Shown here in pieces: positions 778 to 60,275 of a DNA stretch of 64,000 nt. The notes under the pieces are model-generated. The model had not been told where the DNA came from. It was given only the letters and a program-made list of their open reading frames with translations, and made no database searches. How positions within the stretch are numbered: the first letter of the stretch is position 1; each line of letters opens with the position of its first letter. The DNA comes from Tenrec ecaudatus (lineage: Eukaryota > Chordata > Mammalia > Afrosoricida > Tenrecidae). The stretch is taken from the NCBI RefSeq assembly GCF_050624435.1, contig NC_134546.1, positions 18,437,001-18,501,000 on the forward strand, in the 5' to 3' direction. A program made the translations under genes and the position numbers.

Positions 778-31906
<31,129 letters not shown>

Positions 31907-37085: not shown

Positions 37086-37129
37086 CCGCTTGACACCCGC
37101 GGGGTTCCTGGCAGGGCAAGAGTTGTGTG

Positions 37130-38429: not shown

Positions 38430-38535
38430 GGGCCGACCTGGGTGTGAGTTCCAATTCTACCAGCCGCATGACCACCAGCCGACCTGTGCGGACCCTGGGG
38501 TTTCATCATCGGAGTAATGGGGTTTCAATAGCCAC
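38430..38535 (+). repeat. MIR fragment between FNDC4 and GCKR
   Basis: 'gggtgtgagttccaattcta', 'gtttcatcatcggagtaatg': MIR core and 3' part. Confidence 0.55.
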
Positions 38536-39412
38536 ATCTGCCCTTGTAGCCAAGAGCTATGGACGTTTGAAGTGCTGTTTGCTCTGTAAAGTGGATTGTT
38601 GGCTCATGTTTTTAGGGCAGAGACCTTGGCTTCGAAATCACATTGCAGTATTCCTATTTCTGTACAACTTTTGTTCCCTCTTGAAACATCCAGTTCAGGG
38701 TCTGCACACCTGGGGCTTGGAAGCTTCTGTCCCCTTCCTTTCCGAGAGGACAGAGAGGGCAAGTAGGGCAGGGCATGTGTTGTACAGAGCATGAGACCAA
38801 GCCATGGCCAGGGCCCCTGATCTCTGCTGACCCCGAGGACCCTGATCTCTGGCCTCCTGGGGCAGTGCACTGTTGCTCGGACAGGCTCGTTGTAGTGGGG
38901 TGGGCCTGTGTCTGGGTGTGTAATCCTGTACTTCCAGGCCGAACATCCCTCTGAGAAGAAGACATTGTGCGTTGAAGGTCAAGAGTAATCTGCCCTGGAG
39001 TCTTCCACTCCAGAGCGCCACACCAGTGGCTAGGGAGACAGGCTACACACCAAGAGGCACCCACAGGAGCCTCTAGTGGCCAGGCAAGGGTGCAGGCAGA
39101 GCTCTAGGGGTGGTGCTCAGAGAGAGCAGGGTCCTTGGGTTAATCTTCTTTGGCCTTCAGAGGAAGAGCTTCGATGAGCTGAGCTGACCCAGTGGCTGCC
39201 ACACTGAGCTCAGACACAGCAGTGGCTGTGAGGGTGATACAGGACTGACCGGGCAGGGTAGCTCAGGCCATCACTGTGCATCTGAAACAAACAACAAGAA
39301 GTCTCTTGCCAATGTCTCTGTATCCCAGTGGAATGGATCATCTCAAACGCACCGCTGTGAATGTCAGAATCCAAGCCGGGCTGAGTTAAGCACTGGTCTG
39401 AGATTTTTGCCA

Positions 39413-39612
39413 TCTACCCACTGCCACCGAGTGGATGTGATTCTGCCTGATAAGGACTCAATAGGACGGAGCGGAACTGCCCTTTTGGGTTTCTGAGACT
39501 TTCAATGCTTACAGGCGCAGGGAGGCCCACCTTTCTCCCTCAGCTGCAGAGTTTGAATCACTGACCTTGCTTATTGCTTATTAGCCCAGTGGGTAACCCT
39601 CTGCCATCTAGT
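39413..39612 (-). repeat. AfroSINE
   Basis: Antisense copy: 'ccactgccaccgagtggatg', 'gggtttctgagactttcaat', 'agtttgaatcactgaccttg'. It ends 69 bp before the first GCKR relic. Confidence 0.82.
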
Positions 39613-39680
39613 AGTGACAAATCCAAGACAGTTTGTTCTTCCACTGTTATTACCTCCTCACCTTCTCTCTGAGCCAACTG

Positions 39681-39753
39681 GTCTCCTTCAACCAGTTGAT
39701 GAAAGGTCAAGGACAGAAACCTTTTACACTTGCTTCATTGCAGGGGGCCACAG
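39681..39753 (+). pseudogene. GCKR: GCKR exon relic (VSFNQLMKG...QKP)
   Basis: VSFNQLMKGQGQKP reads cleanly. A one-base deletion near 39722 then shifts the frame; the shifted frame gives YTCFIAGGHR against human YTYLIAGGDR. The donor 'ag|gtaggg' at 39754 survives. The expected acceptor position reads 'aactg' instead of ending in AG. Confidence 0.85.
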
Positions 39754-40093
39754 GTAGGGCAAACTGCCCTAGGAATATTTTATTTGGCCACAATAGTCAT
39801 TTTCCGAAGATCCTTTGGAATGCCTTTGAACAGAGAATGTGTCCCCTTTGCCTGGGTCCCCACCACCCATGCCTTCGGTTTTGCACTTGGCTGTGCTGCC
39901 TTTTGGCAGCCCTTGCAGGAATTTCGAGTTTTTCAGGGTGCTGAGCAAGCGCCTTGAAGCAATGTTAAGCAAACAGTGAAAGCTCAGTCAATGAGTGTTT
40001 CCCTTTGTTTGCTTCTCTAGGTGCAGGCTGACCTAACAAAGCATGGCTCCTTGTCTCCACCCAGCCCCACTGACCCTGAATCTGTTCCCTTAG

Positions 40094-40164
40094 GTCTGTG
40101 GTGGCCTCTAGGGAGGGAAGGAACAAAAGAGAGCACCTTACATGGGATTGAGGAGTTGAAGGAG
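40094..40164 (+). pseudogene. GCKR: GCKR exon relic (SVVASREG / TKESTLHGIEELKE)
   Basis: The acceptor 'cccttag|g' is good. SVVASREG is followed by four extra bases near 40119-40123, after which TKESTLHGIEELKE resumes in another frame. The exon end 'aaggag|ctttgt' lacks the GT of a donor. Confidence 0.88.
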
Positions 40165-40314
40165 CTTTGTGTTCCTTCCCCGAGGGGGACAGAAAAGCCC
40201 CAGTAATTCACTGGAAGTCTGCCCGTCCCCTGGATGGGACCCTGATCATCTCACACAATAGATGTGCACCCTAGACTCCTTAGTGGCAGTCCCCCACCCC
40301 GACTTGTCTCCTAG

Positions 40315-40365
40315 GTGGCTGCTGCGAAGAAGCGTGTGATTGCCATTGGCATTTCGGTAGACTCT
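40315..40365 (+). pseudogene. GCKR: GCKR exon relic (VAAAKKRVIAIGISVDS)
   Basis: Seventeen intact codons lie between a good acceptor 'ctcctag' and donor 'gtgagt'. Compared with human VAAGKKRVIVIGISVGLS it has lost one codon near the end. This is one of the least damaged relics. Confidence 0.85.
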
Positions 40366-41024
40366 GTGAGTGTAAAGGTGGATTGAGTGTGTCTATTTCA
40401 CAGGGTCGGGAATAGAAAATAGATGGACGAGGTGGGCCCCTGAAAACAGGAATTCCTCAGTGGTGGCCAAGTGGGAAGAGGAATATACATGCAGTCCCCT
40501 CCACAATCACAAGAGATGAACCAATCCAGGGGTTGGTCACCTGTGCTGCCAGCCAATCAGAGGGGCCACCTGGCTTATAAATCAAGTTCTGTTGAAACAC
40601 AGGAAGGCCTGCTTATTTACAGGCCTGTGGCTGCTTCCATGAGGAGGTCAGGGTTGAGTAGTTGCAGCAGGGTCCACAAAACCTAAAATAGCCACCACTG
40701 GCCCTTTACCAAAGAAACCCGATCCCTTGCTACTTAATGGTGCCTGTGCCATCTGTCCCAGCCACACCATGAGACTTAGGAGAAAGGCAGACCCGTGGAC
40801 CCTACCCCAGACCCACCGAGTCTGAGTTTGCGTTTTAAAGAGCCCCAGGGAGTGGGAGAAGCACTTGGTTCAATGACTCCAAGCTTTCTTTCAATTTGGT
40901 AGCGACCTTGGTCTAACAATCTGAGTGGAAATTCGATCAAAGCCGTCCTAGAAGGAGAACATTGACTATAAAGAGTTTGAGTAATTGAAAAGTTTTCCAA
41001 TTTTACCCCACGTGTGATTTCCTC

Positions 41025-41115
41025 AGGGAGCTTGTTAAAAATGTAGATACCTGACCCTCTCCTTCAGATCCTGACCGGGTCGATCTGAACTGTGCCCAGA
41101 AGTCTGCATTTAGAA
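41025..41115 (+). mobile_element. MER5A-like fragment
   Basis: 'gagcttgttaaaaatgtaga' followed by 'tcctgaccgggtcgatctg' and 'agtctgcatttag' resembles the interior of MER5A. Confidence 0.5.
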
Positions 41116-41201
41116 CAAAGTTTTCGGGTGCACGTAGTCCTCAGACAAAGCTCAGTCACCTGCCATCAGTCATTTCTCGCCCTCGCACCCTCTCCCACCA
41201 G

Positions 41202-41295
41202 GCTCCCTTTGTGGCTGGTCAAATGGAAGACTGCATGATAACCCGACTGTTTTCTTGCCAGTCCTGGTTGGTTTTAACCCAGTGAACATGGCCAG
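41202..41295 (+). pseudogene. GCKR: GCKR exon relic (APFVAGQMEDCM / TVFLPVLVGFNPVNMA)
   Basis: The acceptor 'cccaccag' and donor 'gtgagc' are intact. APFVAGQMEDCM is followed by a one-base deletion near 41245, so TVFLPVLVGFNPVNMAR reads in a different frame. Confidence 0.88.
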
Positions 41296-42424
41296 GTGAG
41301 CCTGCAGTCAAGAAAGGTGGTGACTCACTTGAACCCTGAGGGTGTGGGGGCTGGAGGACCCTGGTCAAGGTTCACAAAGCCACCGAGGAGAGGGCACACA
41401 GGGTCTTGTTCACCACATTTCAGAAAACTGAAAGAAACATGGGGTGCCCTGAAGCCCGAGAGGTTCTTTGGATCGGTCCTTCCATTCACTCACCCTCTCT
41501 CCTTGTTTCAAAAAGTATTAGAGGCAGTCAGTCTACAAAGGATGCATAAAAAGCCGAAAAGCATACCTTCAAAACAGGAGGCGAGAAAGCATGGAAAATC
41601 AGGGCAGGGGGAGAATAGGACAGAAATAATGTTCTTTCATTTTGTGTGGGCTCCAAGCAGCTTTCAAAACAGGAGTCCAGGGTCCTGAACAGCTTCTTCT
41701 TCCTCTGTCCACCTCCCTTAGTTTAGCACCCACACTCCCTCATTCTTGTAGGCCCCCCTTTAGTCCCCTCTGGCTGTGCAAACCCCCTCCCTTATGCCCC
41801 TTCTTTGAGGGTTCTGAGCCTCCAAATCGCTGCCTTCGTACTCTCTGTTGAAATGGCCATTTTGTCTGATCTCAGAGAGGGTCAAAATATTAAGCCAGCA
41901 AGCAGCGCTCAGATGTGGCTCTGTGGATGCGCTGCCTGGCGAGCGTTAGAACTAAGGAAGACCACAGATTCCTAGCCCACATCTAAGAGGTCTGCTTCAG
42001 CAGGTTTGGTGTACAGCTCTGGGATGTCTACTATTTTGAAGCATCCCTAGGAAACCTGATGCACAGTCAGGTTTGAGCCACCTGAAGCTAAGGGCCTCCT
42101 GTCACTGAAGGCACTCCAGCAAAGGCTTGCTGAATAATCCAACAGGAACTCAGTGTATTCAGAGGTGATCTGCGGAGAGGGGGTAGGGTGGGTTCTTTAT
42201 GAGCTACTTTTTTTTTTAACTCCTAGATTCTAGGTTTGCAGAATAACTCATACAAAGGTATAAATAAGCCTAAGATAACCTGAACCCAGATCCTTTTAAC
42301 AGAGGACTCTCCATCACCAAAATGGATCTGCTGCAGGGGATGCTAATTTCAGGCGCTGTGACTCAGTGAAATGAAGAATTTCAAACAAGGTAGGCGTGGA
42401 GATCTTCCCGTTGTTCCTTTAAAT

Positions 42425-42625
42425 CAGCGGCTCCCAAACTTGGCTGATCTTCAGCGTCGTCTGGGAAGCCTTTTAAAAATACAGATTGTTGGGCTCCTCT
42501 CCAGAGCTACTGAATTTGAATCTTAGGGTGGGGGTGGTTCCCAGAAATGGATAATTAATTAAGAAGAAAAAAAAAAGCTCCCCTGATGGATTGGATCTCT
42601 GGCCAAGTTTGGGAATCTTGGTTTT
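42425..42625 (+). mobile_element. MER5A-like hAT fossil
   Basis: 'cagcggctcccaaacttggc', then 'ctgggaagccttttaaaaat' and 'gggctcctctccagagctact', closing 'ccaagtttgggaatc', follows the MER5A pattern. It is an old, shared eutherian element. Confidence 0.6.
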
Positions 42626-42949
42626 AAACCATTGACTATGGACACAGCCTCTTCTCTTTGTTTATAAGGGCCTTATGACGCCTCTAGGTAGCATCAGAAG
42701 TCGTCTGAGGACAAATTGTAAGACACATTTTACATAATGGGTATGGAACATTGTAAATGTGTTTGCTGTACATGTAAGACAGGTGAAAAAGTATACAATA
42801 TGTTCGAGAAGGGATGGACTTTGCAGAGATGGGATGCTATGTCCACATAACTCGGAGAGTTACCACAGTGGGTGATTCAGTAGCAAAGCCATGGCAGATC
42901 AACTATAGAAGGAAGATCCTCTTTCTTTGCGATCCCATGGTTTATGCCT

Positions 42950-43300
42950 GTCTTAGTTACTAGTACTCTTGAAAGGAAATACCACAAGTGGGTGACTATC
43001 AAGAACAGAAATTCCACACACACAAAATGAACAGAAATTCATTTTCTCATAGTTCAGGAGGCTAGAAACCCAAATCAGGGCCTCAGCTTGGCTAATTCCC
43101 GTCTGGGACCAGCCTTGCATCTTGGGTCTAGGTGCTCTTTTGGTCACTCTGAAGTGATTGGGTTTAGGACCCATTCCACTCTGGTATGACCTTGTGAACC
43201 TGACAAAAGAAAACCCATTCCCCAACAGGATTACATCAATAGATACGGGAGCCAATGCTACAATATAGATTTTGGGGTCACAATTGAATCTGTAACAGGT
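42950..43300 (-). repeat. Old interspersed repeat, eutherian type
   Basis: 'aaataccacaagtgggtgac', 'cattttctcatagttcagga' and 'gattttggggtcacaattga' follow a pattern common in placental genomes. The family name is not certain. Confidence 0.45.
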
Positions 43301-43307
43301 TTGGGCT

Positions 43308-43505
43308 GTGTTTTCCAAAAGTGGGCGATACTGCCTCCTGGTGGGCACTGGAGCGATCCAGGGGGGCTGTACAAGCAGATGCTTACTTACACAGTCGTGG
43401 ATTATGAGCTAGAGTACAAGTTTTTTATCACCAGGAAGCCCTAAGTAAATTTTTTTTTCTTGAAAAGGGGGCAGTAGGCCAAATAAGTTTGGGAGCCTAT
43501 GCTCA
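43308..43505 (+). mobile_element. hAT-like non-autonomous element (second family), GCKR region
   Basis: 'gtgttttccaaaagtgggcg' start and 'ggccaaataagtttgggagc' end, with the internal word 'ggggcagtaggcc'. It is the same family as 23888-24124 in the other orientation. Confidence 0.55.
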
Positions 43506-44626
43506 AGGGAGATAACAAGTTTGTAGCTTTCTTGTCTCCTTAAGAAATTGTTTTGTAAAAAAAAAAGAAATTGTTTTGTTTTTGATTAATTCACCGATGA
43601 AAGGGATGTTTGCCAGCTTTTAGGTACCACACTAGCTTGGTTCTCTAATTAGGAATGTTATCCCCCCTCAGGTTCACTGTTTGGAGGGATTTCCAGGATA
43701 TATTTACAGGATGTGCAGGACTTCTGATGGTCCCTCAGACTGAACATACGTTGGCAATTCTGACACTTGGCAAACAGACATCCGCCTGGGGTCCTGCAGA
43801 GAGTGTGGCTTGTGCGGGCACCTCAAAGGAACAGGACACAAAAAGGTGCTAGTGTCAGGCTGGATTTCAAATATTGTTTGGGGCTTACGTTACAGAATGT
43901 TCTACGAAACACCGTCCTTGCAATGTAGAGATAAGAAGCCCAGTGAGCTCTGTAGAGTTGGTGACCTCAACTCCCAACCCCATTCTGACCTTTGATCCTG
44001 GCCCCCAGCTGAGGTCCCTCTCTGAGATTCTCAAGGACAATCCTCTCACGTCTGTCTCTCTTGAAGCCCAGAAATGATCCCATTGTAGACTGGAGGTCAG
44101 CACTCCTCCAAGGTGCAGAGTGGATGCCAAAATTGCACGAGAAATAGGAAGGTAAGGTCTCTCTCTCCTTTCCCCGCTCTCTCCCGTAGCCCCGGCGCCT
44201 TGGGATTCCTCGCTCCTGCCTTAGGGCCTCTGATTTTAGAGTCTGTTACAGCTTGTCAACATCCTGAAGCAGTGCATCGGCTGAAATGTTATAAATCACA
44301 TTCCATCTTCTTTTACTTTTTCACCTTAAGATGCTTTAACTTCATTATGATCCCGTGTCTCAGATCAGTCGTCACTAAACCCTGAAATGCTCTAGGGGCT
44401 ATATTTTGCATCTGTGTGTAGAAAGTATTGACTAGAATGATGAATTGCCTTATTTTGTCTTATCTCTTTCATATGTTCAAATTTCAAATATGAGCTTAAC
44501 AAAAATGAGATGCGGTTTCATTGCCCAGCCTTTGTAATCCTCTCCGAAATGAGGTGTGCCTTCTCAACCTCCAGTGCTCTGTTGTTGTAGTCCACCTCTG
44601 AATCGCGGCTGAGTCTCATGAACATG

Positions 44627-44905
44627 AGATCTAGTGGTGTGGTGGTTCACAGCTTGGCTTCTAACAAAAGGTCTGCAGTTCAAACCCCCAAGTGACTGAC
44701 TTTGGGGAGGAAAGACCTGATGATCTGCCCTGGTGATGTCAAAATGGGTCCCTTTGCTTCCAAATCAAGAGCCCTTCTGGAGTGGTGGGTTATGTATTAA
44801 GCTGCTTAACACAAGGTCAGCAGTTCACAACCACCAGCCGCTCCATGGGAGAAAGAGGAGGCTGTCTACTCCGGGAAAGATTCAAATGGACTGGATGGCA
44901 CCAGA
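44627..44905 (+). repeat. Two AfroSINE copies in tandem
   Basis: Sense copies at 44627-44755 ('gatctagtggtgtggtggtt') and 44766-44905 ('cttctggagtggtgggttat', 'ggtcagcagttcacaaccac'), both incomplete at the 3' end. Confidence 0.7.
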
Positions 44906-46103
44906 TCCCATTACTTTGGCCAAAGGCCTTGGCCAAAGCCCCATCCATCCTTCCCCTGCCAGCGACAGGCACATCCGCGGCATTCCATATTACACCAGCT
45001 CCGGTCTTGCATCTTCCAAGTGCACTCTCTTCTCTCTGCAACTGTTCACTTTTAATCTCGCTTTTGCAGTCACAACTTGTTCCTATCACGTGTCATCTCT
45101 CTGCAGTGATCTCTTTTCTGTTTTGCCTGCTGTGTTGCCTACCTGGACCATGACCGCAGCTGCTTTATTGATCTGTCCAAAGCCTATGACATCTGGTGTC
45201 TGGACTGACCAACGACTGTAAGAGAATCCTGCGGGAGGAAGTGTGGGAACGTTCTCCGGCTAATGGGAAAGCCACTCGGCGTGGGTTTTCTTTTCTTTCT
45301 GCTGTGATTTGGGTGAAAGTGTACAGAGTCTATTATTGGTTTTCCATTCTACAATTCACACGCCTTTTGATTCATAACACTGACTGCCGCACCTCCAGGG
45401 TAGCTCTTCCCACTTGCTCCTAAGTTGATTGTCCTAAGGAGCGGCCCCTCCCTAGCATGACTGTTCACCTAATAGATTTGGCTTGTCGTTTGAGCGAGAG
45501 GAGGGTGAGCTAGGCTGCATGCCTGAAGGGCGTCTAGGGGGCCATCTCAGGGGTTCCACTAGTCTCTCTCAGACCAGAAAGCCCGGTCTTTGTCATTGAT
45601 TTGAGTTTTGTTCCACATTTTTCTCCCACTCTCTCCATGACCCTTTAGAGAGGTCAGCACCGGTAGCCAGGCACTACCTAGCTCTCCTGGTCTCGGTGTG
45701 GTGGAGGCTGGTGTTCACGCGGTCCACTAGTCCCTTGGGTGAACTGTTTCCTTGCGACTGTGATTCTCATCACAATCCTTTGCTCTGGACAGGGAGAGAG
45801 CAGCAGGGGCACCTCGCAGGCTTTGAAGACCCCATCACTGCTCAGCACACTAGGATGCAGAGCATTGTCTTCGTGGACGAGGGTATGTGAACTGACCTTG
45901 GTGTCCCCTCGGATGATTTCTCCCCCACTGAGTCCTGGCTGTTCCACAGGAATGACGAAAGGTGGCCCTTTGCCTCCTCTTCCTCTCTCAGCTGCATTCT
46001 CACAGTGCACAGGGGCCACCGTGCAGGCCTGATGGTCATTGCCCAGTGGCCTCTTCATCCTCTTCTCTCTCTCCACCCCTCCCTCATCCCCTTGCCTTCT
46101 TAG

Positions 46104-46222
46104 CCCGAGGTCCTCCGCAGCTCCTCTCAGAAGAAAGGTGGAAGTGCCACTAGGATCCTCCTGGAAACCCTGTTCCTGGCAGCTCACAAGTCTATGGAGC
46201 GGGACATTGCAGCCTCTCAGAG
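46104..46222 (+). pseudogene. GCKR: GCKR exon relic (PEVLRSSSQKKGGSATR...IAASQR)
   Basis: Open throughout, with acceptor 'ccttcttag' and donor 'ag|gtaggg'. It encodes KGGSATRILLETLFLAAHK, matching human KGGSATKILLETLLLAAHK. A preserved exon like this argues for fairly recent loss or chance survival. Confidence 0.9.
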
Positions 46223-46589
46223 GTAGGGTGGTCCTGGACAAGAACGAGGTCAGAGTCAGACAAGGACCAGGAGGCAAGGACCACCCTGCCTCCGTTAGGC
46301 AAGAGGGAGGGCTGGAGTTGGTGGGGACCCAGCCAGTGCCGATTGAGAGACTAGGCTGGCTGCTTCTTCTCTGGGCAAGGAACGGGCTGGTGAATGACGT
46401 CATCCCCACCATGAGACCAGAGCCTGGTTTGCTTCCAGTGGACTTGGAGTTCTCAGGTCACACACCTAACCCTTGAACCAGCCTAGATCACCCAAAGTTC
46501 ACCCCGCTCCTATGACTCCGTTCATGCAGGGACCATGCAGATCGGCCATGGAAGAGCTCCTTCGGCCTTGGGTCTACTCCCCTCTGCAG

Positions 46590-46780
46590 CAGGGACTCTC
46601 AACATTCCTCACACCGTAACCCTTTCATACACTTCCTCATGTGGTGGGGACCCCCAACCATAACAGTATTTTCACTGCTCCTTCATCACTGTCATTTTGC
46701 TACTGTTCTGAATCGGGTGACCCCTTGAAAGGGTTGTTCGACCCCTAAAGGGGTCGCAAACCACAGGTTGAGAACCACGG
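46590..46780 (-). mobile_element. SPIN/URR1-like non-autonomous hAT element
   Basis: 191 bp, from 'cagggactctcaacattcc' to 'ggttgagaaccacgg', with a perfect 8-bp target duplication ctctgcag on both sides (46582-46589 and 46781-46788). It sits in a former GCKR intron. Confidence 0.9.
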
Positions 46781-47335
46781 CTCTGCAGGATCCCTAGTCC
46801 AGTGCTAAATCAGCTGACAGAGCGCCCATTTACCTCAACTCTCAGATGTCTCAACTGTCTTCCTGGACCCCATCCTCTTCCTCATAGGCCCCAGATGCCC
46901 TGGTCTCTTTCTCTGCTTTTTCCTTTTCTGCCCCTGGAAGCCCTTTCAGAATGCCGCCTGGCCCCCCTCTGTACCTCCACCAGCCACCAGTAGAACTTAG
47001 CTTTAAGGAACTGTGCCTCTTCCTCTCCATGGCAGGGGGCACTCGGCCTTTCTGAGGGGTGGCCTTAGGAGCTGGTAGCCTTCCCCCCAGATGCCTACAG
47101 ATGAGTGAGCTCATCAAGTGACCTACAACCAAAGTCCCAAGGTTGCAGCCTGATGAAGCCAGCCAGCACCATGCATTTAGAGGGGGAAGGTGGCCTGGGG
47201 TCAGAGAATAGGGGAAATGCTCTGAGACATGGTAATGGGCAGGGTGTTTGGGACCTACATGTTGGAGGTCCTGGTAGACTTTTTAAGAGAAAAAAAATCA
47301 TATACATCTTTCTCTGATCTCTGACCACTTTCCTT

Positions 47336-47435
47336 TGTGATCCCATCATGTCCTGAGCCATTCCCAGCCTGGAGAAGAAAGGCTGGGTGTATTGCCATCA
47401 TGGATGGTGTAGAGTGCATCCACACCGTTGGTGCT
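47336..47435 (+). pseudogene. GCKR: GCKR exon relic (SLEKKG ... IAIMDGVECIHTVGA) with stop
   Basis: The codon aligned with lysine in human LMKSVSTSLEKK is TGA (47354-47356). About 29 nt, the segment for LVGWQTLGI, are missing near 47388, which shifts frame before IAIMDGVECIHTVGA. The expected donor reads 'gctag|gggg', with no GT. Confidence 0.88.
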
Positions 47436-47770
47436 AGGGGGGACCCCATTCCAACCTCTCATCCTGATTTTACCGGATCCCAACTGATCGGTCAGCTATC
47501 CAGATTCTTCCCTCCTCCCAAGATCCGGGGACTCTTCATTCAATGGTTTTCCACTCCTGCCCAAACAGGCATTTGAACCCTCCCGCAGTTCCTGTTCCCT
47601 TCGCTCCTACTGTACGCTGATGATGCCTCCGCACCCAACTCCCCCCACCCCACAACTTCACTATAGCTTGAAACGCCCGAGTCTTCCTTCCCAGCTCTGT
47701 TGACACCTCCAAGCCTAAAACCTTCCTTTCCTAAAAACCCAGCATTCTTTCATGTCCTGAAATCCCCCAG

Positions 47771-47847
47771 ACTTCCAAGGCAGCTGTGGCTCTCTCATCG
47801 GTGATCACAATGACATGTTTAACCAGAAGGCTAGACCCACCAACCAG
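47771..47847 (+). pseudogene. GCKR: GCKR exon relic (DFQGSCGSLIGDHNDMFNQK)
   Basis: The frame is open, with acceptor 'aatcccccag' and donor 'caaccag|gtggga'. GSLIGDHNDMFNQKA matches human GFLIGDHSDMFNQKA. The relic's 77-nt length equals that expected for the human exon. Confidence 0.88.
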
Positions 47848-47957
47848 GTGGGAGGAGATTGGCACTTGGGGAATTCATTATGACCACTGGTGTGCAGAGG
47901 GTGGGAGAAAGGGGGCAGGTGCAGAGAGGTAGGGGAGGGCAATGGGATGGTCTAGAT

Positions 47958-48147
47958 CAGCGGTTCTCAACCTGTGGGTCATAACCCCTTTTGGGGTCGA
48001 ATGACCCTTTCACAGGGGCCGCCTGATTCGTAACAGTAGCAAAATGACAGTGATGAAGTAGCAATGAAAATAATTTTATGGTTGGGGGGCCACAACATGA
48101 GGAAGTGTATGGAAGGGCCACAGCATTAGGAAGGTTGAGAACCACTG
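47958..48147 (+). mobile_element. SPIN/URR1-like non-autonomous hAT element
   Basis: 190 bp in the opposite orientation to the other three, from 'cagcggttctcaacctgtg' to 'ggttgagaaccactg'. The target duplication gtctagat / gtctagaa matches at 7 of 8. Confidence 0.9.
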
Positions 48148-48356
48148 GTCTAGAATACCAGGTAGTGTATGGGGAAGCACACGGTGAAAACGCTACCCTC
48201 AGTCCCAACCCTGATTCTAGTCCAAGGCTCTTGTACTGACGCGGTGGGCCATCCTGAGCAAAATACTTCACCTCCTTGATTCTGTTTTTATCATCTGTAA
48301 ATGAGAGGTGGCCTCAAAAGTTCTCTTCAGTATACAAATCCATGTTCTGGCTCTAG

Positions 48357-48452
48357 CGGGCCCAGTTCTCCTTCTCCCAGGAGGACATCCTGACTTTCGT
48401 CCTGCCATCCTCATGGAAGTTGATAGCGTGCTGTTCATTTTCACCCTGGATG
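48357..48452 (+). pseudogene. GCKR: GCKR exon relic (RAQFSFSQEDILTFVLPS / MEVDSVLFIFTLD)
   Basis: QFSFSQEDILTFVLPS is followed by a one-base deletion near 48410, then MEVDSVLFIFTLD in a second frame. The donor after GATG is 'ggagca', so GT has become GG. Confidence 0.88.
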
Positions 48453-48609
48453 GGAGCAAGAAGATGGGCGTCATGGGGTGTGGGGCTGGGGGCAGTACAA
48501 TGATCATTTTCTGGGTCTTGGAACAGGTGCTCAGAGATAAGGACAGAGCAAATATCCCGAGGGGACCCAAGGAAACAGGAGGAACAGCTGGACAGCTGGA
48601 CTTTCCTAG

Positions 48610-48704
48610 ACAAGCTCACGGAGGTGCAGACACTGGTGGAGCAGGTGAAAGAGAAGATCCCCAACACTCAAGCCCTGCAACCCAGTACTGTGGGGCAGTC
48701 CTTG
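48610..48704 (+). pseudogene. GCKR: GCKR exon relic (DKLTEVQTLVEQVKEK...)
   Basis: Open after acceptor 'ctttcctag': KLTEVQTLVEQVKEKIPNTQ, then STVGQSL. The sequence after TCCTTG ('gagaggagg') is not a clear donor, so the exon runs on in frame into the next relic. Confidence 0.85.
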
Positions 48705-48770
48705 GAGAGGAGGCTCTGGGATGGCAGTTACCGTAAGGCCTTCCTAGGGATGCCCATCCTGTTTCTCTCT

Positions 48771-48846
48771 CTGAAGAAGCTCTTTCCTGCCATCACCAGC
48801 ATCACATGGCTACTGGTCTTTGAATCTGAAGGGAACTTCATCCAGG
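48771..48846 (+). pseudogene. GCKR: GCKR exon relic (LKKLFPAITSITWLLVFESEG)
   Basis: LKKLFPAITSITW, then EGNFIQ, matches human LKKLFPSIISITW and EGNFIQ, with one codon fewer in the middle. The sequence just before it ('gtttctctct') has no AG acceptor. Confidence 0.88.
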
Positions 48847-49159
48847 GATTAAGAATGAGAAGGTCCTGTCTGGAATGAGGGTGGGGAGGGGTGGGAGATT
48901 CCAGAAACTGGGATGTGAAGGCTAGAGCTGGACCTCCACAAAGCTAGCTGAGCAAATTCTACCTACACTGGAATGACCTGAACTAATTGGCAGACTCTAG
49001 TGCATTCAATTATATCCACAGGAATAGGGGCTAGAATTACAACTCATTTTGGGGGTGGGAACGATCCAATCTATCACACCCTGCAGAGAGGTTTATAAGC
49101 CAGCAAAGCATGTTCCCCCATGCTGTGATAAACCTTAGATAACATTGTTCTTTTTATTT

Positions 49160-49345
49160 TATTTCATTTTAAATCATTTTATTGGGGGCACCTACAACTC
49201 TTATCACAATCCATCCATCCATTGTGTCAAGCACATTTTTACATTTGTTGCCATCATCATTCTCTAAACATTTTCTTTCTACTTGAGCCCTTGGTATCAG
49301 CTCTTCATTTTCTCCCCATCCTCTCCTCCATCCACATTGTTCTTT
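49160..49345 (-). repeat. LINE-like 3' end, antisense
   Basis: 'aaatcattttattgggggca', 'tgtgtcaagcacatttttac', 'cttgagcccttggtatcagc'. Confidence 0.75.
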
Positions 49346-49369
49346 TTGGTATCTGCTAATCAGCACAGC

Positions 49370-49960
49370 AAAAAAGAAAAAGACATTTCAGTGTTGTTTT
49401 TCCCTCTTTAGGTATTATTTATTTTGTTGTTGTTGAGGGTATACACAGCAACATACATGCCATTTCAACAGTTCCTGCACATACACAATCCAGCCTTATT
49501 CAGTCTACCTTTGAGTGGTGCAGCATTCGCCCTATCCTTTTCTAAGCTCTTCCTCCCACATTAAAACAAACTCACTCTCGCCTTCCCCCCAGGTAGCTGA
49601 TAGAGAACCAAATACTCAAGGCAGACCTGTTTAACTCCTTAAGCTCAACTACTGTTGAAGTTTACGCCGAGTTCAGTGAGTTCAGGGGCTACTTTTGTTT
49701 GAATGGTTAAGAGTATCTCAGAGCAATAGTTTCAAGAGTTCATTGATCCTCTGATCTTGAGTTCATGAGAAAGTCTAGAGCCCATAAGAAGTTTAAAATT
49801 CTATTCCGCATCACCCCTTCCTTTTCAACAGGCTTGCTCTATGGAATCTGTGTCCCAAATGTCTAGTAATGGTAGTCGGACACCATCCAGTTCTTCTGGT
49901 CTCATGGCAAAGGAGTGCTTCACGGAGGCAATTAGCTACGCATTCCATCTCCTACTGTTG
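49370..49960 (-). repeat. Unclassified retroelement-like segment, antisense
   Basis: Starts with T-rich text, then 'gagggtatacacagcaacat' and 'ccatttcaacagttcctgca'. It resembles an antisense LINE 3' UTR, but no named family is recognised. Confidence 0.35.
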
Positions 49961-50169
49961 TTGTCATTTATATTTAATTCATTTTGATTTGATGACAATG
50001 AGTACAGAAGTTGACTTCGGAAAGATAGATAGATATTGGCCATTTGGGTTTTTTCCTTCCATGTCTTGCTTCTTTATAGTTTTTGCCCCTAGGAAGGTAT
50101 TTTTCAATGGGTTTTGACCATAAAAGAATAGTCACTTTTATCTTACTGATTTGTAAGAATGGGTACATA

Positions 50170-53100
50170 TGACAAGGACAGCAGGCGTCTCTCTTTTCTG
50201 CTCACATTTTCCACGTTTTTCATTTACCTTTTATTTATGCATTTTTAAAAGGAAATTTAATTTACTCTTACCATATCAAAGGGAACCATACCGCTGGGAA
50301 CCATGCAGAACCACAATAACAGACTATGGAAAAGACTTCTTCGAGGGTTTGGGCCTATGTTGGGGGAAGGTTAGACTGTAGAGGTTTGCTTTGGATTGGA
50401 TGCCATCGGGGACTGGGGCGATCCTCTGACTGCAGAGATTTAGAAATGTTACTAAGCAGGAGGTAAATCTAACACTGTAATTGACAAAGCAGCCACGTCC
50501 CTCACCTTAACTGGGAGGGTGGGTATATGTATGCTTGTTCCATGACCACAGGAAGTGGTCCAGTTTTCTATGTATCATCTCATTACGGTCACCGAGTGAC
50601 CTCGGCTGATATTTGGTTTTCTATGAAATTGTTTACACTCAACAAGAAAATATCATGCCTTAGATGTGAGCATTGTGACAGCTCCCAGATGCCAAGGACA
50701 GCACTTCTCTTGTTCTTTTTGGCAAGGCAAGATCAAGTTGGGTCATAAAACATTAATGCCTGCTATCCAGATGGCAAAAGTGAGCGAATCTAAGCTGCTG
50801 ACGCATTTGATGTGACGAAGGCTCTAAAGTAGCATTTTAGACTAAAGTCAGGATACGTGGACCATCTGCAGTAAACAGGAACCAGCCTTAAAGACAGGCG
50901 CTCTCCATGAGCAAGCCTAGGCAATGGAAACATGTTCCAGAGTCCTGCGGGGTCTGTCTTAGGTAGCTTGGTGACTACTGTTTCCTTTTAGCCCTGTCAC
51001 AGGCTGTTCTACTTTCCCCAGCCCTTGAATAGGCACACCACAAAGTGCCCCTAAAAGGCAAACTCGCCTTTGACTGGCAGAGGAAATGAAGGGCTGTGTG
51101 CATTTCCTTGGTAACTCAAGCTGACGAGTTTAGAATGGTTGGCTGAGCTTTCGGTGGGGAAGATGGCTCCTTTGGACCTCCTGCTAGAGTCAGAGAGGTT
51201 TTTGGGGCTACAGGCTGTGTGAATTGTGCCCTTGCAGGGTGTCTACAGAGGAGGAGGAGGCAGCCGTGCCTCCTGGGAGTTCTCCGAAGTCATTTGTTCA
51301 TCTCATTGTAAAGGTTTATGGAATTCCTCGCCCCCGCCCCCGCCCCCAGGAGAACTTGGGAGATGTAGTGTAAGGTTTTTCCGAGTGGGTCATACCTTGG
51401 TTCTTGGTATGATGAACGATGAAAGAATTCATGCTGAAACCTGTTTTGTAATCCAGGTGGGTTTAGGAGAAGTTTCAGGTTTTACGGTCTCAAAAGGATA
51501 TGCACCAGTTCTGGGAAGCATGCCCAGCCGCGGGGAGGCCACACTGGGGTTCATACCTGGGTCGAACAACCACGTGGAAAAGATCACCCTCGCGTGCAGA
51601 TTTGGGGGGTGGCGATCCCAGGGGGCCAGAAGCCCAAAACCCCAAAGACGAAGAGCATGTGGGCCAAGAGGCTGTGGGCCCCGAGTAGACTGGAATGGGC
51701 TCATGTGTGCCTTCGAGCCCTCCTCTGCTGTGAGGAGCCAGGGGAGAGAGTGGCTGTCTCACAGCCAGGCTAATTTCAAACCCAGGCATGGTTGATGGTA
51801 TTGGTCGACCCCATTGCTGGGTTGATCCCACCTGGGTGATGTCATGAGCCTGGGCCTAGTTTAGACCGCCCAGGTGTACCTCCCACCTGGCTCAGGGGCT
51901 TGAGTAGGAGCATGCTCAGTTTGGAGTATTCATAGGCATCTGATGGTCGTCTGATTTCCTTCCAACCTCCTTTATGGGGGCCTCTGCAGGCATGGGAGGG
52001 GACACCCCCCTGCCCCTAGTTTTACAACTCGCAAAGTCAATGATTCTGAATACATAGGGTAAGTGAAGTCTGATGTCCACATGAGAAGGAGTGCCTTGTT
52101 GAATACAGACCGTATCCAGAGTATAAGCATCATTTAGTATCGCAGGAATAAGCTACACTTTTGTCCCTCCACGTGAGCATATTCCTGGACTGGAGTGAAA
52201 TTGTCCCTACAGAGCAGGTTGAGTGTCTTGGAATAAGACAAATATTAGTTTCCATTCCTAAGGGCTCTTTGGATATTTTTTATGTGAAGAAGTTTTACTT
52301 GACGTTTTTTAAATACTGAAATCGATTAACCTGACTTTATCTTTTACTCAGCGTTAGTTATTCTCTTTCAAAATGTACAGAAATTATTGATCGAAGGAAT
52401 TGTCCACTGGGGCTTTTGAAATACTAACTTGCTGAAATATGTGTGATGGAAAACCCTCTCACTTTTATTTGGAAAGGTCTCAAGCCTGAAGAAAGTTTGG
52501 GAAGAAGACTACAATGAGCATAGACTTTCCGTCCTTCAGTAACATTTGTTTCATCGTCCTCTTTTCCCCTGAATCATTTGAAAGCTAATTGGGGGTATCA
52601 TGACACTTCACACTAAGTATCTCAGCATGCAGAGAGCAAGGGCATTCCCCCACATCAGCGCAGTGTGATTATCCCACCCCGGACATGGGAGTGAGCACAG
52701 TGCTCAGTCTTGAGGGTAACAATAGGAGATATTGTTCTTATCTTCTAGATGTAGTTTGAGCTGCTGATCTTTCAGTTAACAACTGAATGCTTAACCAGGC
52801 CCCCTTCTATATGAGCTTAGCCCACTTCATTTCCTTCCGGGCTCTAGTTCCCTCAGATGAAGAAATGGGGATAGAAAGCACGTCCCGGTGGGGTTATTAT
52901 GAGGATTAAGTGGAATTCGTTCATTTTTCAACAAGAATGTAGTGATCAACAGCTATGGGTCAATAACTGGCAAAAAGACCAGAGCTCTGGATACAAAGAA
53001 GACCCCCATCTCTGCCCTTCAGCAGAGTGTGGTGCAGGGGAAGGAATCCAAGGACTTCTGGCTCCTACTCTATCTGGTACCCAGGGAGAAGGAAGAAAAA

Positions 53101-53380
53101 TTTGACAAGAGCAAATTCCCACTTGAAAGGATTCAAAGAAAGTATCCATCTACCAGGCGTCAAAACCACAAATGTAAAAAAATAACAAAAAACCCACACA
53201 TGTGTGAAACCACCTGTTTTGTCCGGTATAGTTTAGGCTTAGGACTGTCCCAACGTTGAAACCCTGTGCCCGTCAAGGAAATGACACCTGCATTTTGGCC
53301 TCAGGGTTTCAACCCCTGGACTTCTGTCTCCAGAGTCACGCCTGGCCTGCTGCTCTCCCCTGCTCCCATTTCTGATATCT
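50170..53380. other. Former GCKR intron, mostly unassigned
   Basis: No GCKR exon is found. A 189-codon plus-strand frame at 51226 and its antisense shadow have no recognisable domain. A MIR fragment lies at 52835. Confidence 0.5.
52835..52930 (+). repeat. MIR 3' fragment
   Basis: 'ccctcagatgaagaaatggg', 'gttattatgaggattaagtg'. Confidence 0.55.
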
Positions 53381-53389
53381 CCCTATCAG

Positions 53390-53536
53390 TGTCAGCGTGA
53401 GCTAAGCACCAAGTGGGTGCCCAATACAGTGAGTACAGGGAGCCAGGAGCTCCTGGGGAAGATTCTAGAAAACCACCTGCTGGACCTGTGCATTCGCAAC
53501 TCTAGGCTCTTCTGGCGGGCCCTGGCCATGTTGCAG
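53390..53536 (+). pseudogene. GCKR: GCKR exon relic (QRELSTKWVPNTVSTG...LFWRALAMLQ)
   Basis: All 49 codons are open, with acceptor 'cctatcag' and donor 'gtaggg'. QRELSTKWVPNTVSTGS and LFWRALAMLQ match human closely. It is the best preserved relic. Confidence 0.92.
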
Positions 53537-53618
53537 GTAGGGCCGGGTGGGCGGGGCAGCCTAGGCCTCAAACCCGGGCCTGCAGGGGGGCAGGGAGGGT
53601 GTGCTCTAAAGAGGCACC

Positions 53619-53762
53619 TCGAGTGACCCTATAGGACACAGTCGTTTCCCAGATGGTCCAGGAGTAGAAAGCCCTGTCTCCTACGGAGCGGGTGGTGGAT
53701 TTGAACTGTTGACCTAGCAGATGTCAGCCCAATGTATAACCGCTATCTACTCCACCGGGGCT
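53619..53762 (-). repeat. AfroSINE, partial
   Basis: Antisense copy: 'gagtgaccctataggacaca', 'ggtggatttgaactgttgac', 'ctccaccggggct'. Confidence 0.75.
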
Positions 53763-53769
53763 AAAGAGA

Positions 53770-56460
53770 CACAGGAGACGCCTTTTCTCCTGGGTCTCTC
53801 CTTCTTCCTCTATCAGGCTCATCCTCTCTCCCGAGGAAGGGTGGAAATGTGTGTGTGCGCACATCGGCGAATATCTGTAAATGATCGAACAGACCCCTTC
53901 AATGAATAACTAAACAACAAGAGAAGATTCTTGCAGTTGCAGTATGTGATAGAAGTCCATTTTCACCAGGGTAAGCTAAACAAGGCAAATGAGTGGCTAA
54001 TACAAACGAAAAGTCCCAGGGTAGCTACATCCAGATATTCCCAGCATGTGCTCTGGAACCTCCAGCCCTGAGGTCTGCTTTTCTCTCTGTTGCCTTAAAT
54101 CTCGGGCAGTGTTTCTCCATAGGAAGCAAATAGACACTAGACACCAACAATGCCACTCTAATAAGTTGGCTATTTAGTGGAGCCTATCTGTCCTCAAATG
54201 CCCTGGGGAGGGTTCTTATTAGTTTCTTTGGGGTTAGGTGGCCGGCCCTGAACAAATCACTGTTCACACTAAGGAGGCTCTCTGCCTGGGCCTAATTCAG
54301 GTGCTCTCCTTTCAAGATGGTGGTGGGAGAAGCAGGAAGGTGAACTCCAATGAAACGGCATAGCCTGTGTGAAAATGGTGCGGTGAGAGGCCTTGACCTC
54401 TTCTCTCATCACCTAGAGGAGAACCACCATTGGCTTCAACCTGAAGCTGATTCCTATGAAGCAGAGGTCCAGGCATGCTTCCTCTCACCAACCTTTTTCA
54501 TCGATTCTGACACCAGCTGTCCCTTCCACAGCAGTCTCTATTTCTCTGCTGGGCTCAAGAATTTGCTGAGTGGCCACAAGACTCACAGTTATGGAGTTGT
54601 TTGGGGAAGTAACAAGATTAGAAATGACTCAGGTCTCATTGATTTGGTGTCAGGACAGCCTCTGCTTAGCTGTGCTTTCAAGCAGGTCTCTCTCAGGCAT
54701 TCGGTCTCTGGCTTTCTCAAGCAAGAGTTACAAAGCTCATTAGATGACCAAGAGGTGGCTGGAGACCGCCCCCCCCAATCTGCCAGCAACCCCCTCCAAG
54801 AGCATTCAGCTTTCTCACTCTGTGGACCAGGAGCCCACCATGCCTTCTGCTGCTTGTCTCCTGGTTCTGCTGCTGCTATTTCTCTACGACCACGTCTTGC
54901 TGTCTCTCCCTGTCTCCAGTGCTGCAGTTCTCTCTCTCTCTCTCTCTGTCTACCTGAGGTAAGGTGGGTCCCAGTGCAGAGATCCTGGCTCCAAAGGATG
55001 CACTGTGCTCTCACCTCTTCTTGGTGATTGTGAAGCCCCCTCTCTGCTCTGGAATGGGCTCTCTTTCCAGCTTGGTGGGATGGCAAAATTATCCCCTAGT
55101 TGGGTCCCATAGGAGGCCGGTTCAAAAAGGCTGTAAAACAAATTCCATGATCTTTTCATTCCACGTCTTCTTGAGATTTTGGAAGCACCCTGTAGATCTT
55201 ATTTGCATGTTCTCAGCCCACAAGGGTGCCATATACCTTATTTAAATCATTAGCAAGATATCCGAGCCCCTTAGTGGGTCACAAGCACTTGATTTGCATA
55301 CCACCACCCACTCCTTTAGTGGGAGATACAAGACTATGGCTGGAGGGGCTGTCTTAAGAAATACATCGCAGGACAGTCTGAGATTGAGGGAGTAACGGTT
55401 TCCCAGGGGAATATCGAGGGATGGATGGATGTTGAGCAGATAGCAAACCAGATTGTCATGAAAGTCATATTGTCAGACAAAATACAGAACACTCAGTCAA
55501 AGTTGAATTTCAGAGAAACAAGGAGTAAATTTTTATTATAAGACTATCCCATTAAAGTATTATATTAATTTTTGGTTATTTATCTAAAATTCATATTTGA
55601 CTGGTGTCTCTCTCTTTATTTGCTAAGTCTGGCATTCTTACAAGAAAGGAATCCGGGAATAAACATTTAGTGAGTGCACCAGTCCCCCAAACAAGGCCTC
55701 AAAGGAGTCAAATTAACCAACCAACCAAAAAGCAAAACAAAACCCAAACATTCATTATATTGCTCTAGGTCCTGGAGGTGACGTGCGTAAAGGTGACAGG
55801 GTTTACATAATCTCGTCCTTGCCATCCATAGTGGACAATCTAGGAGAGAGAAAACTATGGTAACTCTTGCAAGACGAATGTTCCCTATGGCAAAAGAGAA
55901 GGCTTCGTGGGAGTGGTAACATTTGGGTGAGGCTGGTGGCCTTTACAGGGGTTCTGGATAGGTGGAAGACTGACGAGCTTCTGACAGAGGATCAGCCAAA
56001 GCCCCGAAAGGGCACTAGGCATAACATGAGAGGGTCACGGGTATGACTACAGGGGAGAGCCCTTTTACAGAGCAGTGGGTGCTGTGAGGTAACAGGAACT
56101 GTGGAAGAGTTGAAAAACAGACAGGAATTTAGATTTGCCAAAAGTAACTGAACCTGTGCTGTCCAAAATAGGTGATACACTTGAAATGTAGCCAGTGTGG
56201 CTCTGGAACTGAATTCTAGTTTTATTTAAAAGCTAAACCAATGTGCAAAAAACCTTTTTTGATTAAAAGTAACTTCGCTTCTACGACTGGACTGCATTTC
56301 ATGTTACCAGCACAAATTCAACATCTGACACCAGCATTTGAAAGCTGTGCCAGATTTCAAAGACTTGGTGTGGAAATGTAAAATACCTCATTCGTATTAT
56401 TAAGTTATTTCCAAGTTGAAATAATTTCCTGAGCATCTATTTGGTTAAAGAATGTCATTA
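53770..56460. other. Former GCKR intron, mostly unassigned
   Basis: Contains a 225-codon plus-strand frame (54350-55027) with a TCTC-rich end and no domain, and AT-rich unique sequence after 55400. No exon relic is seen. Confidence 0.5.
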
Positions 56461-56469
56461 AAATTAGTT

Positions 56470-57240
56470 TCATCCAATAAACGGCCATCTAGCTGAGAAG
56501 CAACAAAGCCCACATGGAAGAAGCACACCAGCCTGTGTGATCATGAGGTGTCAATAGGATCAGATACCAGGCATCAAAGAACAAAAAATCATATCATTGT
56601 GAATGAGGTAGAGTGTGGAGTGGAGACTCAAAGCCCATCTGTAGGCACTGGAAATCCCTTACAGAAGGGTCGCAGGGAGGAAATGAGCCAGCCAGGGAGC
56701 AGCATAGCACCAATGAAACAACTTTCCTCTAGTTCTTTAATGCTTTCTCCCCCCCTCCCCTCCACTATCATGATCCCAATTCTACCTTACAAATCTGGCT
56801 AGACCAGAGCATGTACACAGGTTTCCAGATAAGAGCTGGAAACACAGGGAATCCAGGACAGATAAACCACTTGGACCAATAATAAAGAGTAGCGATACCA
56901 GGAGGGGAAGGGGAAGGTGAGGAAGAAAGGGGGAACCAATCACAATGATCTACATATAACTTCCGCCTTGGGGGCAGACAACAGAAAAGTGGGTGAAGGG
57001 AGACATCAGACAGTTTAAAACATGAAAATATAATAATTTATAAAGTATCAAGGGTTTGGGACAGAGGGAGTATGGGAGAGGGAGGGGAAATAAATGAGGA
57101 GCTGATAGCAAGGGCTCAAGTAGAAAGAAAATGTTTTGAGAATGATGATGGCAACAAATGTAAAAATGTGCTTGACACAATGGATCTATGGATGGATTGT
57201 GATGAGTAGTATGAACCCCCAATAAAATTATTTTTTAAAA
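56470..57240 (+). repeat. LINE-like 3' end, longest copy
   Basis: About 770 bp from 'agctgagaagcaacaaagcc' through 'ggatcagataccaggcatca', 'ccttacaaatctggctagac' and 'ggaatccaggacagataaac' to 'cccccaataaaattatttt'. It is the best copy here from which to rebuild the family. Confidence 0.78.
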
Positions 57241-58186
57241 TTAGTTTCATCAATTCTTTTTATATTGTAAAAATTTTAAGGATATATGTGCCTCCAATTA
57301 TATTCCTGATGGACCATGTTTTTCTAGACAGAGGGGAAGTGTAGTGGCAATAGAGGGCCATGGTTATGAGTGAACACTCTTGACACAAGATCGCTTCGGT
57401 TAGGGAGGAAACAATTGTTTTCAGCTCCTACGCATAGTGGCCCGTGCACAACAGAACAAAGCACTGCTCAGTCCTGTGCCATTCTCACACTTGTTCTTAT
57501 GTTTGAGTCCAATGTTGAAGCCAAGGTGTCAATCATCTGGCCAGGGTCTCCCTCTTTTTCACGGCCTCTCTACCAAGCAGGATGTCCTTTTCCAGGGACT
57601 GGTCTCTCCTGGTAACATGCCCAAAGAACATAAGCTGAAGTCTGACCATCCTTGGTTGTAAGGAACAATATGACTGCACTTCTTCCAAGACAGGTATGAG
57701 TGTCCTTTCGGCCGTCCGAGGCACCTTCAGTGTCCTTTCCCAGGGCCATAATTCAAATGCACTGGTTCTTCTTTGGCCCTCCTTCTCCAAGGTCCAACTT
57801 CCACATGCATGCGAGGCGATTAAAATACCATGGCTTGGGTCAGATCAACTTAGTCCTCAAATTAGCATCTTTGTTTTTCAATACTTAAAGAGGGAATACA
57901 TTCTGATTAAGTGTACCAGCCTGTAGTGTTGCTGGGATACAGTAAAAAATTGGACCAAGTTGCCGTTAACCCTACAGTTTTACCTTGTCAGTCAAGATCC
58001 TCCAGCTACCCCTTTAACTCAATCTTCCCTTACACTTTGGGGTTGCAAGCTTGGAATCACAAATGGGGACAATATCTACAGCCAGGGTTTAGGATCCTAG
58101 CTTCCCACTCTTGGCTTTCTCCTTCCAAACTTTCCCACATCCCCTGGCCTTTTAGCCCAATGCTGATCTTACCACTTGCTTTACAG

Positions 58187-58816
58187 AGGTTTTCTGGACA
58201 GCCCAAAGGCTCCATGTATCCAGAGCCTCTAGTCCGGTGGTTCTCAATCTTCCTAATGCCGCGACCCTTTCATATAATTCCTTATACTGTGGTGACTCCC
58301 CAACCATAAAACTATTTTTGTTGCTACTTCATCACTGTCATTTTGCTACTGTGATGAATCGTCATGTAAATATCTGATAGGCCGGATGTATTTTCATGGT
58401 TACAAATGAAAATAATGAAAGCATAGTGATTCATCACAAAAATGATATGTCATTCTATATTGTGAAATATTCATTTCTAATGGCAAGTAAATGAAATGTT
58501 GTCTTGAAGCATGGTGTAGCATGGGTAACAGTCTTCCTGCCGGGTACTCGTATGTGGGCGTATCTGCATGTGGGCGGGCCTGCCTGGAGACGGATAGAGA
58601 AGCAGAGTCTCGGTTCCTAAGACCGTCAGAAATAGGTGTTTTCCAATGGTCTTAGGCGACTCCTGTGAAAGGGTCGTTCTACTGCAAAGGGGTCTGGACC
58701 CACAGGTTGAGAACCACTGCTCTGACCCGAGCAATCTACTTCCCTCAGCTACTGTCGGGTGATATCTGGTGGTCCCCACCTCCTGCCATAGCCAGATCGC
58801 ACCTGAGAAAGAAAAG
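58187..58816 (+). pseudogene. GCKR: GCKR exon relic split by a SPIN transposon
   Basis: After acceptor 'ctttacag', RFSGQPK is followed by a one-base insertion near 58210; the restored frame then soon meets TAG. At 58235 a 485-bp hAT element interrupts the exon. The rest continues at 58728, where the frame giving RAIYFPQLLSGDI matches human RAIHFPQPLSDDI. The donor 'aaaag|gtctcc' is plausible. Confidence 0.9.
58235..58719 (-). mobile_element. SPIN/URR1-like hAT element, 485 bp, inside a GCKR exon
   Basis: The ends 'cggtggttctcaatcttcc' and 'ggttgagaaccactg' are inverted repeats. The flanks 'ctctagtc' (58227-58234) and 'ctctgacc' (58720-58727) are a decayed 8-bp target duplication, matching at 5 of 8 with transitions only. 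It is longer than the other copies (about 191 bp), with about 295 bp of extra internal sequence. It has no transposase frame. Confidence 0.85.
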
Positions 58817-59389
58817 GTCTCCTGCCTACCTGGATCATTTATAAGGGATTGGAATGAAAGCAGAGTAGTTAAAGAGGCCCCCAGTGTCTGAGCTTTCCAA
58901 ACTGCTGTTCCACTCCATCATTGCTAACACTCACTGCCCCCCTTCCCACAGGAAGAGTTCTCTCATCTTTGGGCTCATAGAAGTCCTGCGCTGTCCTTCC
59001 ACTTCAGTAGTCGTGAGGGAAGTAGCCGGGTACAATTAGGATCAGGAACAAGTCAGCATAGTTCTTCAGTCAGGATGGGCCATGCCCACAGGCAGCCCCT
59101 GCTCTTCAGCCCGCTTAGCCGAGTGTGACAAAGTGCCTGGCGGTACCCCACTCCACTTGGGAGATGCCTGCCCAGAGGCTCTCAGCTCTTTGGCTCTACG
59201 GCCCACTGTAGCTGCCCGACTATGGTCACCATAAGCAGCCACAGCGCCACACCAAGTGAATCATCTAGGGCTGCTGCTTCTCCCTGTCTCATACCATCTC
59301 CAGTGTTATGGCTCTCTTTCTCTCATGGCTCCTGGGTCTTTAAAGTTCTCGATGTAAGGACTCTGAATCCAAAGGACTCTGGGTCCTTG

Positions 59390-59900
59390 TGTCAGTCCGG
59401 GTGGACTAGAGAAACACCTATGTGTATAAGAAACATATGTGTATCAGAAAGAGATTTATATACAATTGAACATTGAGAAAACATCCCAGCCCCATCCAGA
59501 TCAAGTCCATAAGTTCAATATTAGCCCATATGTCCCATACCAATTTATAAAGCCCTCTTCAGACTCATGAAACACACGCAATGCTGCTGAATGTAGAAGA
59601 TCACAGGCCAGTGGGTAGAAAGTCTTTGGGTCCAGTGTCATTGGAAACATCTCAGTGCCGGCAGGGGTCTCTGCATCAGGGTGGGTCCATGTGTCTTGTC
59701 AGCTGCTCTGTCTCCCACGGAGTGTCAGAGACAGAAGTGTCTCCTGCCTCCAAGGAGGAAGTACCGGATTTCCCATATTTCTCAGGAGAAAGCCATGCCC
59801 ACACAGAGACCTCATTGCCTATGATCTGATTGACAAGCTAGACTCCACCCCTACAATGCTTAATCCTCAAATTAACAATTACCTATCTACCTCAGTCCTA
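59390..59900 (-). repeat. Unclassified 550-bp interspersed repeat, second copy
   Basis: Matches 11290-11850 in reverse: 'aagccctcttcagactcatg', 'gaagatcacaggccagtggg', 'catgcccacacagagacctc'. It lies between the last two GCKR relics. Confidence 0.6.
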
Positions 59901-60097
59901 AAGGATGAATAGTTTCCTGAGGTAGACAGAAGACTTCTCGGTGCACTTGACTCACCTCGTGACCTGTTTTGGATCTTGATGGACACATACTTACTCTCTC
60001 CTATTCCTGTGTCCCAGCTGGTAGCTTTGACCCCCGAGCTGGAAGCGCCTGCTTCTCGTGGGACCTTCCTCAGATAACCTTTCTTTCTCTCCCGCAG

Positions 60098-60275
60098 GTG
60101 ATCCCTGTAGCCTTGCTGAGCCTCCTCTTCCCATGTGCCACTCCAGGGGCCCAGGCACACCTTGGCTGCCACTCCCTCTGTCTGTGAGGCTGTCGGGAGC
60201 ACCCTCCCTGGGCTGGTCAGAAAGGTAAAACAGGCCCCCTGGAGACCCTGGAGCCTGCAGCTTCTGGGCATGTGG
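60098..60275 (+). pseudogene. GCKR: GCKR last-exon relic (VIPVALLSLLFPCATPGAQAHL)
   Basis: The acceptor 'cccgcag' is good. VIPVALLSLLF...GAQAHL is followed by a one-base insertion near 60170, which runs the old frame into TGA; ATPSVCEAVGSTL continues in the next frame. A further shift precedes QKGKTGPLETLEP, matching the human tail. No aligned stop codon remains, so the right limit is approximate. Confidence 0.88.

Follow-up and report, generated by a model that had tools for sequence, protein, structure and literature searches.

The window, by which we mean the whole 64,000-nucleotide stretch of Tenrec ecaudatus DNA analysed here, contains the coding exons of a gene that we take to be FNDC4 and, downstream of them, the remains of GCKR, one exon of which is split by a hAT transposon. 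The genes around the split exon are arranged as follows.

34611..37073, reverse strand: coding exons of the presumed FNDC4, well conserved, adjoining GCKR upstream
39681..60256, forward strand: GCKR remnant, covering residues 119-622 incompletely, with numerous frameshifts and a single in-frame stop (47106)
53393..53536, forward strand: GCKR exon preceding the split one, residues 477-524, open frame, 39/48 residues identical to human
60095..60256, forward strand: final GCKR coding exon (residues 569-622), frameshifted near 60161 and 60213

The FNDC4 region matches a human FNDC4 query, and FNDC4 is the expected upstream neighbour of GCKR. The same region matches the solved structure of FNDC5 (E 4.5e-12), and the Pfam fn3 profile at 19.7 bits, below the curated cut-off of 25. 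For GCKR, the query was the human sequence, which is identical to a solved chain, and a frameshift-aware alignment placed frameshifts near 39723, 40113, 41238, 44145, 47148, 47384, 48408, 58202, 58767, 60161 and 60213, those near 44145 and 47384 being uncertain. With an inferred +2 at the target site of the transposon (see below), these 11 mapped frameshifts bring the total to about 12, in addition to the stop at 47106. Exon numbers were counted backward from the last coding exon, taken as 19, and do not match the published numbering one to one.

We searched the Tenrec ecaudatus assembly (3.92 Gb, 2140 contigs) for GCKR, exon by exon, a procedure that can miss short exons, and obtained three matches at E 0.001 or better, all within the window. 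Residues 1-118 were not convincingly found in the window, including positions 37074-39680, or in the genome (best E 7.4), and no more than about 2.6 kb separates the FNDC4 exons from the first GCKR exon found. A 5' deletion that removed these residues could be an early or even the founding lesion of the gene. Residues 1-30 gave a weak match near 38734 (score 34, compared with 26-31 in five shuffles) and residues 1-24 one at 2146 (E 0.023, 37.5% identity), both of which were taken as chance, and a repeat search over 37001-40300 listed nothing.

The introns of GCKR are present, the remnant stands in the presumed orthologous place next to FNDC4, and no second copy was found in the genome. Since all three genome matches fall in this window, GCKR counts, within the reach of the search, as a unitary pseudogene. 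It is extremely improbable that we are dealing with a duplicate copy or an assembly error and that a working gene stands elsewhere. The missing 5' exons and the possible loss of short exons from the search would fit such a reading, but the exons are separated by introns and adjoin a conserved FNDC4, the genome holds no other GCKR match, the window contains no run of N, and the draft assembly used in 2013 likewise had a broken gene (PMC3613411, Table 2).

The loss of GCKR in tenrec is already known, a GCKR pseudogene having been reported in the lesser hedgehog tenrec by Wang et al. 2013 (PMC3613411). Table 2 of that paper gives frameshifts in exons 5, 7, 8, 9, 13, 17 and 18 and splice lesions in exons 5, 6, 9, 13, 14 and 15, so that the same gene carries many lesions there, as here; the last exon has two frameshifts in our sequence, and the 2013 list has none in exon 19. 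The same paper links GCKR loss to low liver glucokinase activity. Its main text contains no word starting with "transpos", and its abstract, its sections 11 and 12 and further passages describe neither the insertion nor missing 5' exons. Among the publications found on GCKR together with gene loss or with tenrec, it was the sole relevant one by title and start of the abstract.

The split exon and the element within it comprise five segments, all on the forward strand.

58187..58226, forward strand: GCKR exon, portion left of the target site, the 18th if the last coding exon is the 19th, with a +1 frameshift near 58202 and an acceptor AG at 58185-58186
58227..58234, forward strand: left target-site copy CTCTAGTC, with TA at positions 4-5 (the family preference), reading CTC TAG in the ancestral GCKR frame
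58235..58719, forward strand: hAT element, most likely SPIN-type, 485 bp, with inverted ends and an internal length insufficient for a transposase gene
58720..58727, forward strand: right target-site copy CTCTGACC, 5/8 identical to the left copy
58728..58816, forward strand: same GCKR exon, portion right of the target site, with a -1 frameshift near 58767 and a donor GT at 58817-58818

The hAT element is real and splits one GCKR exon. The left flank (58181-58229) aligns with GCKR residues 523-538 at 13/16 identical positions and with one +1 frameshift, the first two of the 16 residues deriving from intron acceptor letters, and the right flank (58722-58819) aligns with residues 538-570 at 21/32 identical positions and with one -1 frameshift; the frame is accordingly lost upstream of the element and again downstream of it. 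When the element and one target copy are removed, alignment of the exon to human residues 521-572 scores 140, compared with 38 for the best of 200 letter shuffles. The terminal inverted repeat joins 58237-58250 to 58704-58717 (14 bp, 93% complementary), and a second inverted pair of 11 bp joins 58262-58272 to 58666-58676. The two target copies differ by three mismatches, all of them transitions. A sequence-only reading of this DNA had described a 485-bp element of hAT structure, with inverted ends and an 8-bp duplicated target, flanked by two halves of a single GCKR exon; the description holds on each of these points, the duplication now matching at 5/8 positions.

The element belongs to a large family. 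We scored the best 40 of 9658 genome candidates, of which the 39 besides the focal copy share 85-88% identity with it, and an exact internal 20-mer of the family has 2938 genome matches, against none for the reversed control. The consensus of the 39 copies is 486 bp long and has the ends CAGTGGTTCTCAACC and GGTTGAGAACCACTG, from which the start of the focal copy departs by two changes within the first 15 bases. The flanking 8-mers agree at six or more of eight positions in 30 of these copies and at five or fewer in nine, a generous count since each end was allowed a shift of up to 3 bp, and across all 39 the target preference is for T and A at positions 4 and 5.

SPIN is the most likely name for this family, on the grounds of its structure, its size and its agreement with a putative SPIN consensus. 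The terminal inverted repeats of SPIN begin CAGTGGTTCTCAAC, and the ends of the family consensus carry this motif. Compared with what we take to be the 5' part of SPIN, our consensus agrees at 337/342 positions (98.5%) without gaps, and identity for the focal copy is 90.9% across 341 aligned positions, an agreement that points to SPIN and is no test of SPIN identity. To this extent it still weighs against membership in a different hAT family with horizontal spread, such as hAT1 or OposCharlie1, which we hold to be very unlikely even though other hATs have been reported in tenrec (passages of PMC5857283) and a search for an autonomous partner yielded none: hAT dimerisation domains gave at least 147 matches, from the best 150 of 1024 candidates scored, and none of the eight loci examined among them matches the family consensus at E 0.001.

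In several respects the family resembles SPIN (SPACE INVADERS), a non-autonomous element found in tenrec and other tetrapods and placed in hAT-Charlie in a passage of PMC4054807. The inverted ends are common to both, as are the 8-bp duplication with a preferred central TA, a body too short for a transposase, and thousands of copies from an old burst. The element itself is unremarkable, and it is notable solely by its location in a coding exon. SPIN transfers to galago, murine rodents, opossum, tenrec and vespertilionid bats, 15-46 million years ago, are given in a review citing Pace et al. 2008 (passages of PMC5857283), and of the SPIN-bearing mammals named there, tenrec carries many more listed GCKR lesions than any other (PMC3613411, Table 2). 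Outside tenrec, searches of viral, bacterial and archaeal, phage and plasmid collections gave no true match to the family, two viral-contig matches having just the 20-mer in common with it; literature matches to the SPIN end sequence, judged by title, included none on transposons.

We compared the age of the insertion with the age of the loss of constraint on GCKR. The focal copy diverges from the consensus by K 0.091-0.105, and 20 copies not picked by similarity have a mean K of 0.106-0.108; nine or ten of these 20, depending on the consensus, are younger than the focal copy by the non-CpG measure. The 20 copies are the first of the 2938 20-mer matches, all on contig C1, with the 20-mer masked and the best aligned piece per copy used, and the requirement of an intact 20-mer may slightly favour younger copies. 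An initial estimate of mean K 0.081 was dropped as biased low, as it came from the 39 copies closest to the focal one. At mammalian rates (2.2-3.5e-9 per site and year), K 0.09-0.105 would correspond to roughly 26-48 million years, and divergence from a family consensus can overstate the age of an insertion.

For GCKR, 303/392 residues are kept at positions where human and rat agree (445 codons counted of 473 aligned, exon-end overruns and a few other codons having been trimmed), which in a neutral simulation with assumed working-gene baselines of 0.90-0.97 corresponds to a neutral K of about 0.07-0.11. Indels provide a second comparison, with 12 frameshifts in 1335 bp of GCKR against 68 non-triplet indels (up to 30 bp) in 7733 bp of the copies, a density ratio of 1.02 (95% range about 0.55-1.9), or 0.77 with nine frameshifts, once the inferred +2 and the uncertain ones near 44145 and 47384 are left out. 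The release of GCKR from constraint and the insertion are thus of about similar age, with wide error; the clocks may be off by as much as about twofold and do not order the two events, "at" and "after" not being separable.

The length of the target site does bear on the order. Human and rat GCKR both read S-L-L, followed by R or Q at residue 540, so that 6 bp are expected between the serine codon AGC and CGA; in the tenrec this gap is 8 bp with one target copy, whichever copy is used, and the ancestral frame runs through the left copy as S-L-stop. Because the target is 8 bp long where the intact gene has 6, the exon was probably already broken when the element arrived. A +2 preceding the insertion has an edit cost of 6.8 and an intact site one of 7.8, one substitution apart, since a prior +2 explains both target copies at once and an intact site needs one more substitution. 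The likelihood ratio of a +2 before the insertion to an intact site with a later +2, computed as a sum across codons, target offsets and positions of the indel, is 367-1752 with the target preference of the family and 218-945 without it; these values assume a duplication of exactly 8 bp, the gain of 2 bp in one step, the human and rat spacing in the tenrec ancestor and an equal chance of indels before and after the insertion, a short prior neutral period lowering them proportionally.

Together, the +1 near 58202 and the target +2 make +3, and the frame before the insertion could therefore have read open there, in a variant (frame 0) with about 11 altered residues, covering the stretch SKARCIESLL, in which human and rat are identical. 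Whether or not the +1 was already present, the element seems to have been preceded by one lesion or more.

We consider it unlikely that the insertion was the first inactivating lesion, in an intact exon, with the other lesions, including the +2 at the target, following later. Such an order is permitted by both clocks, which allow loss and insertion to be simultaneous; the mutual restoration of frame by the +1 and the +2 means that the earlier state was not certainly dead, the preceding exon still has an open frame, and the edit costs lie only one substitution apart. The target length and the likelihood ratio speak against it, however, as does the absence of residues 1-118 from our searches, and its prior is low because the mapped exons carry about 14 disabling changes, of which the element is one, beside 12 frameshifts and the stop. 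The bolder claim, that a transposon gained by horizontal transfer was itself what killed a glucose-control gene, its insertion into an exon with compensating frameshifts being the fatal hit, would explain the coincidence in age between the SPIN burst and the loss of GCKR; we regard it as distinctly improbable.

We therefore favour, as the likely history, the insertion of a SPIN-type hAT element into an already damaged GCKR exon, followed by joint decay. A transposase from elsewhere would have moved the non-autonomous element, which would have entered an 8-bp target in the GCKR exon by cut-and-paste and duplicated it. The target would already have had the wrong length by then, 8 bp in place of the 6 bp of two leucine codons, and the element would have decayed in place together with the rest of the unitary pseudogene. 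The insertion is probably an ordinary late hit in a known pseudogene, which helps to date the loss and probably did not cause it.

The sequence-only reading had allowed that the element either killed the gene or landed after its loss, and saw in it a time marker in both cases. Target length and likelihood favour arrival after damage and disfavour the element as killer, and its use as a marker is supported: as a clean character, the insertion lends itself to scoring across other tenrecs and, if the exon was broken first, it gives a minimum age for the loss of GCKR. Setting the decay of a pseudogene against that of a transposon burst in the same genome dates a gene loss without an outside clock, here with wide error. 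The value of the locus is that of a phylogenetic marker with a probable minimum age, and it presents no new kind of system.

We additionally identified three short, internally deleted copies of the family in the window.

19383-19574: short internally deleted family copy
46597..46778, forward strand: short internally deleted family copy, between GCKR exons
47958..48147, reverse strand: short internally deleted family copy, between GCKR exons

With the element in the exon, the 64-kb window holds four copies, compared with two pieces in 200 kb of sampled genome; this excess, in a small sample, has a binomial chance of 0.034 and a Poisson chance of 0.004, and may reflect insertion into gene-rich DNA.

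Finally, the eight hAT transposase loci examined, of the at least 147 domain matches, match one another, mostly at 86-92% identity among the 40 best pieces, and do not match the SPIN-type consensus; they form a second hAT family, separate and similarly diverged. On contig C40, between 15.9 and 37.7 Mb, eight hAT-domain matches share a profile range (15-80) and an 86-aa open frame, and five of them have equal scores, a pattern suggestive of recent duplication of a family within this contig.
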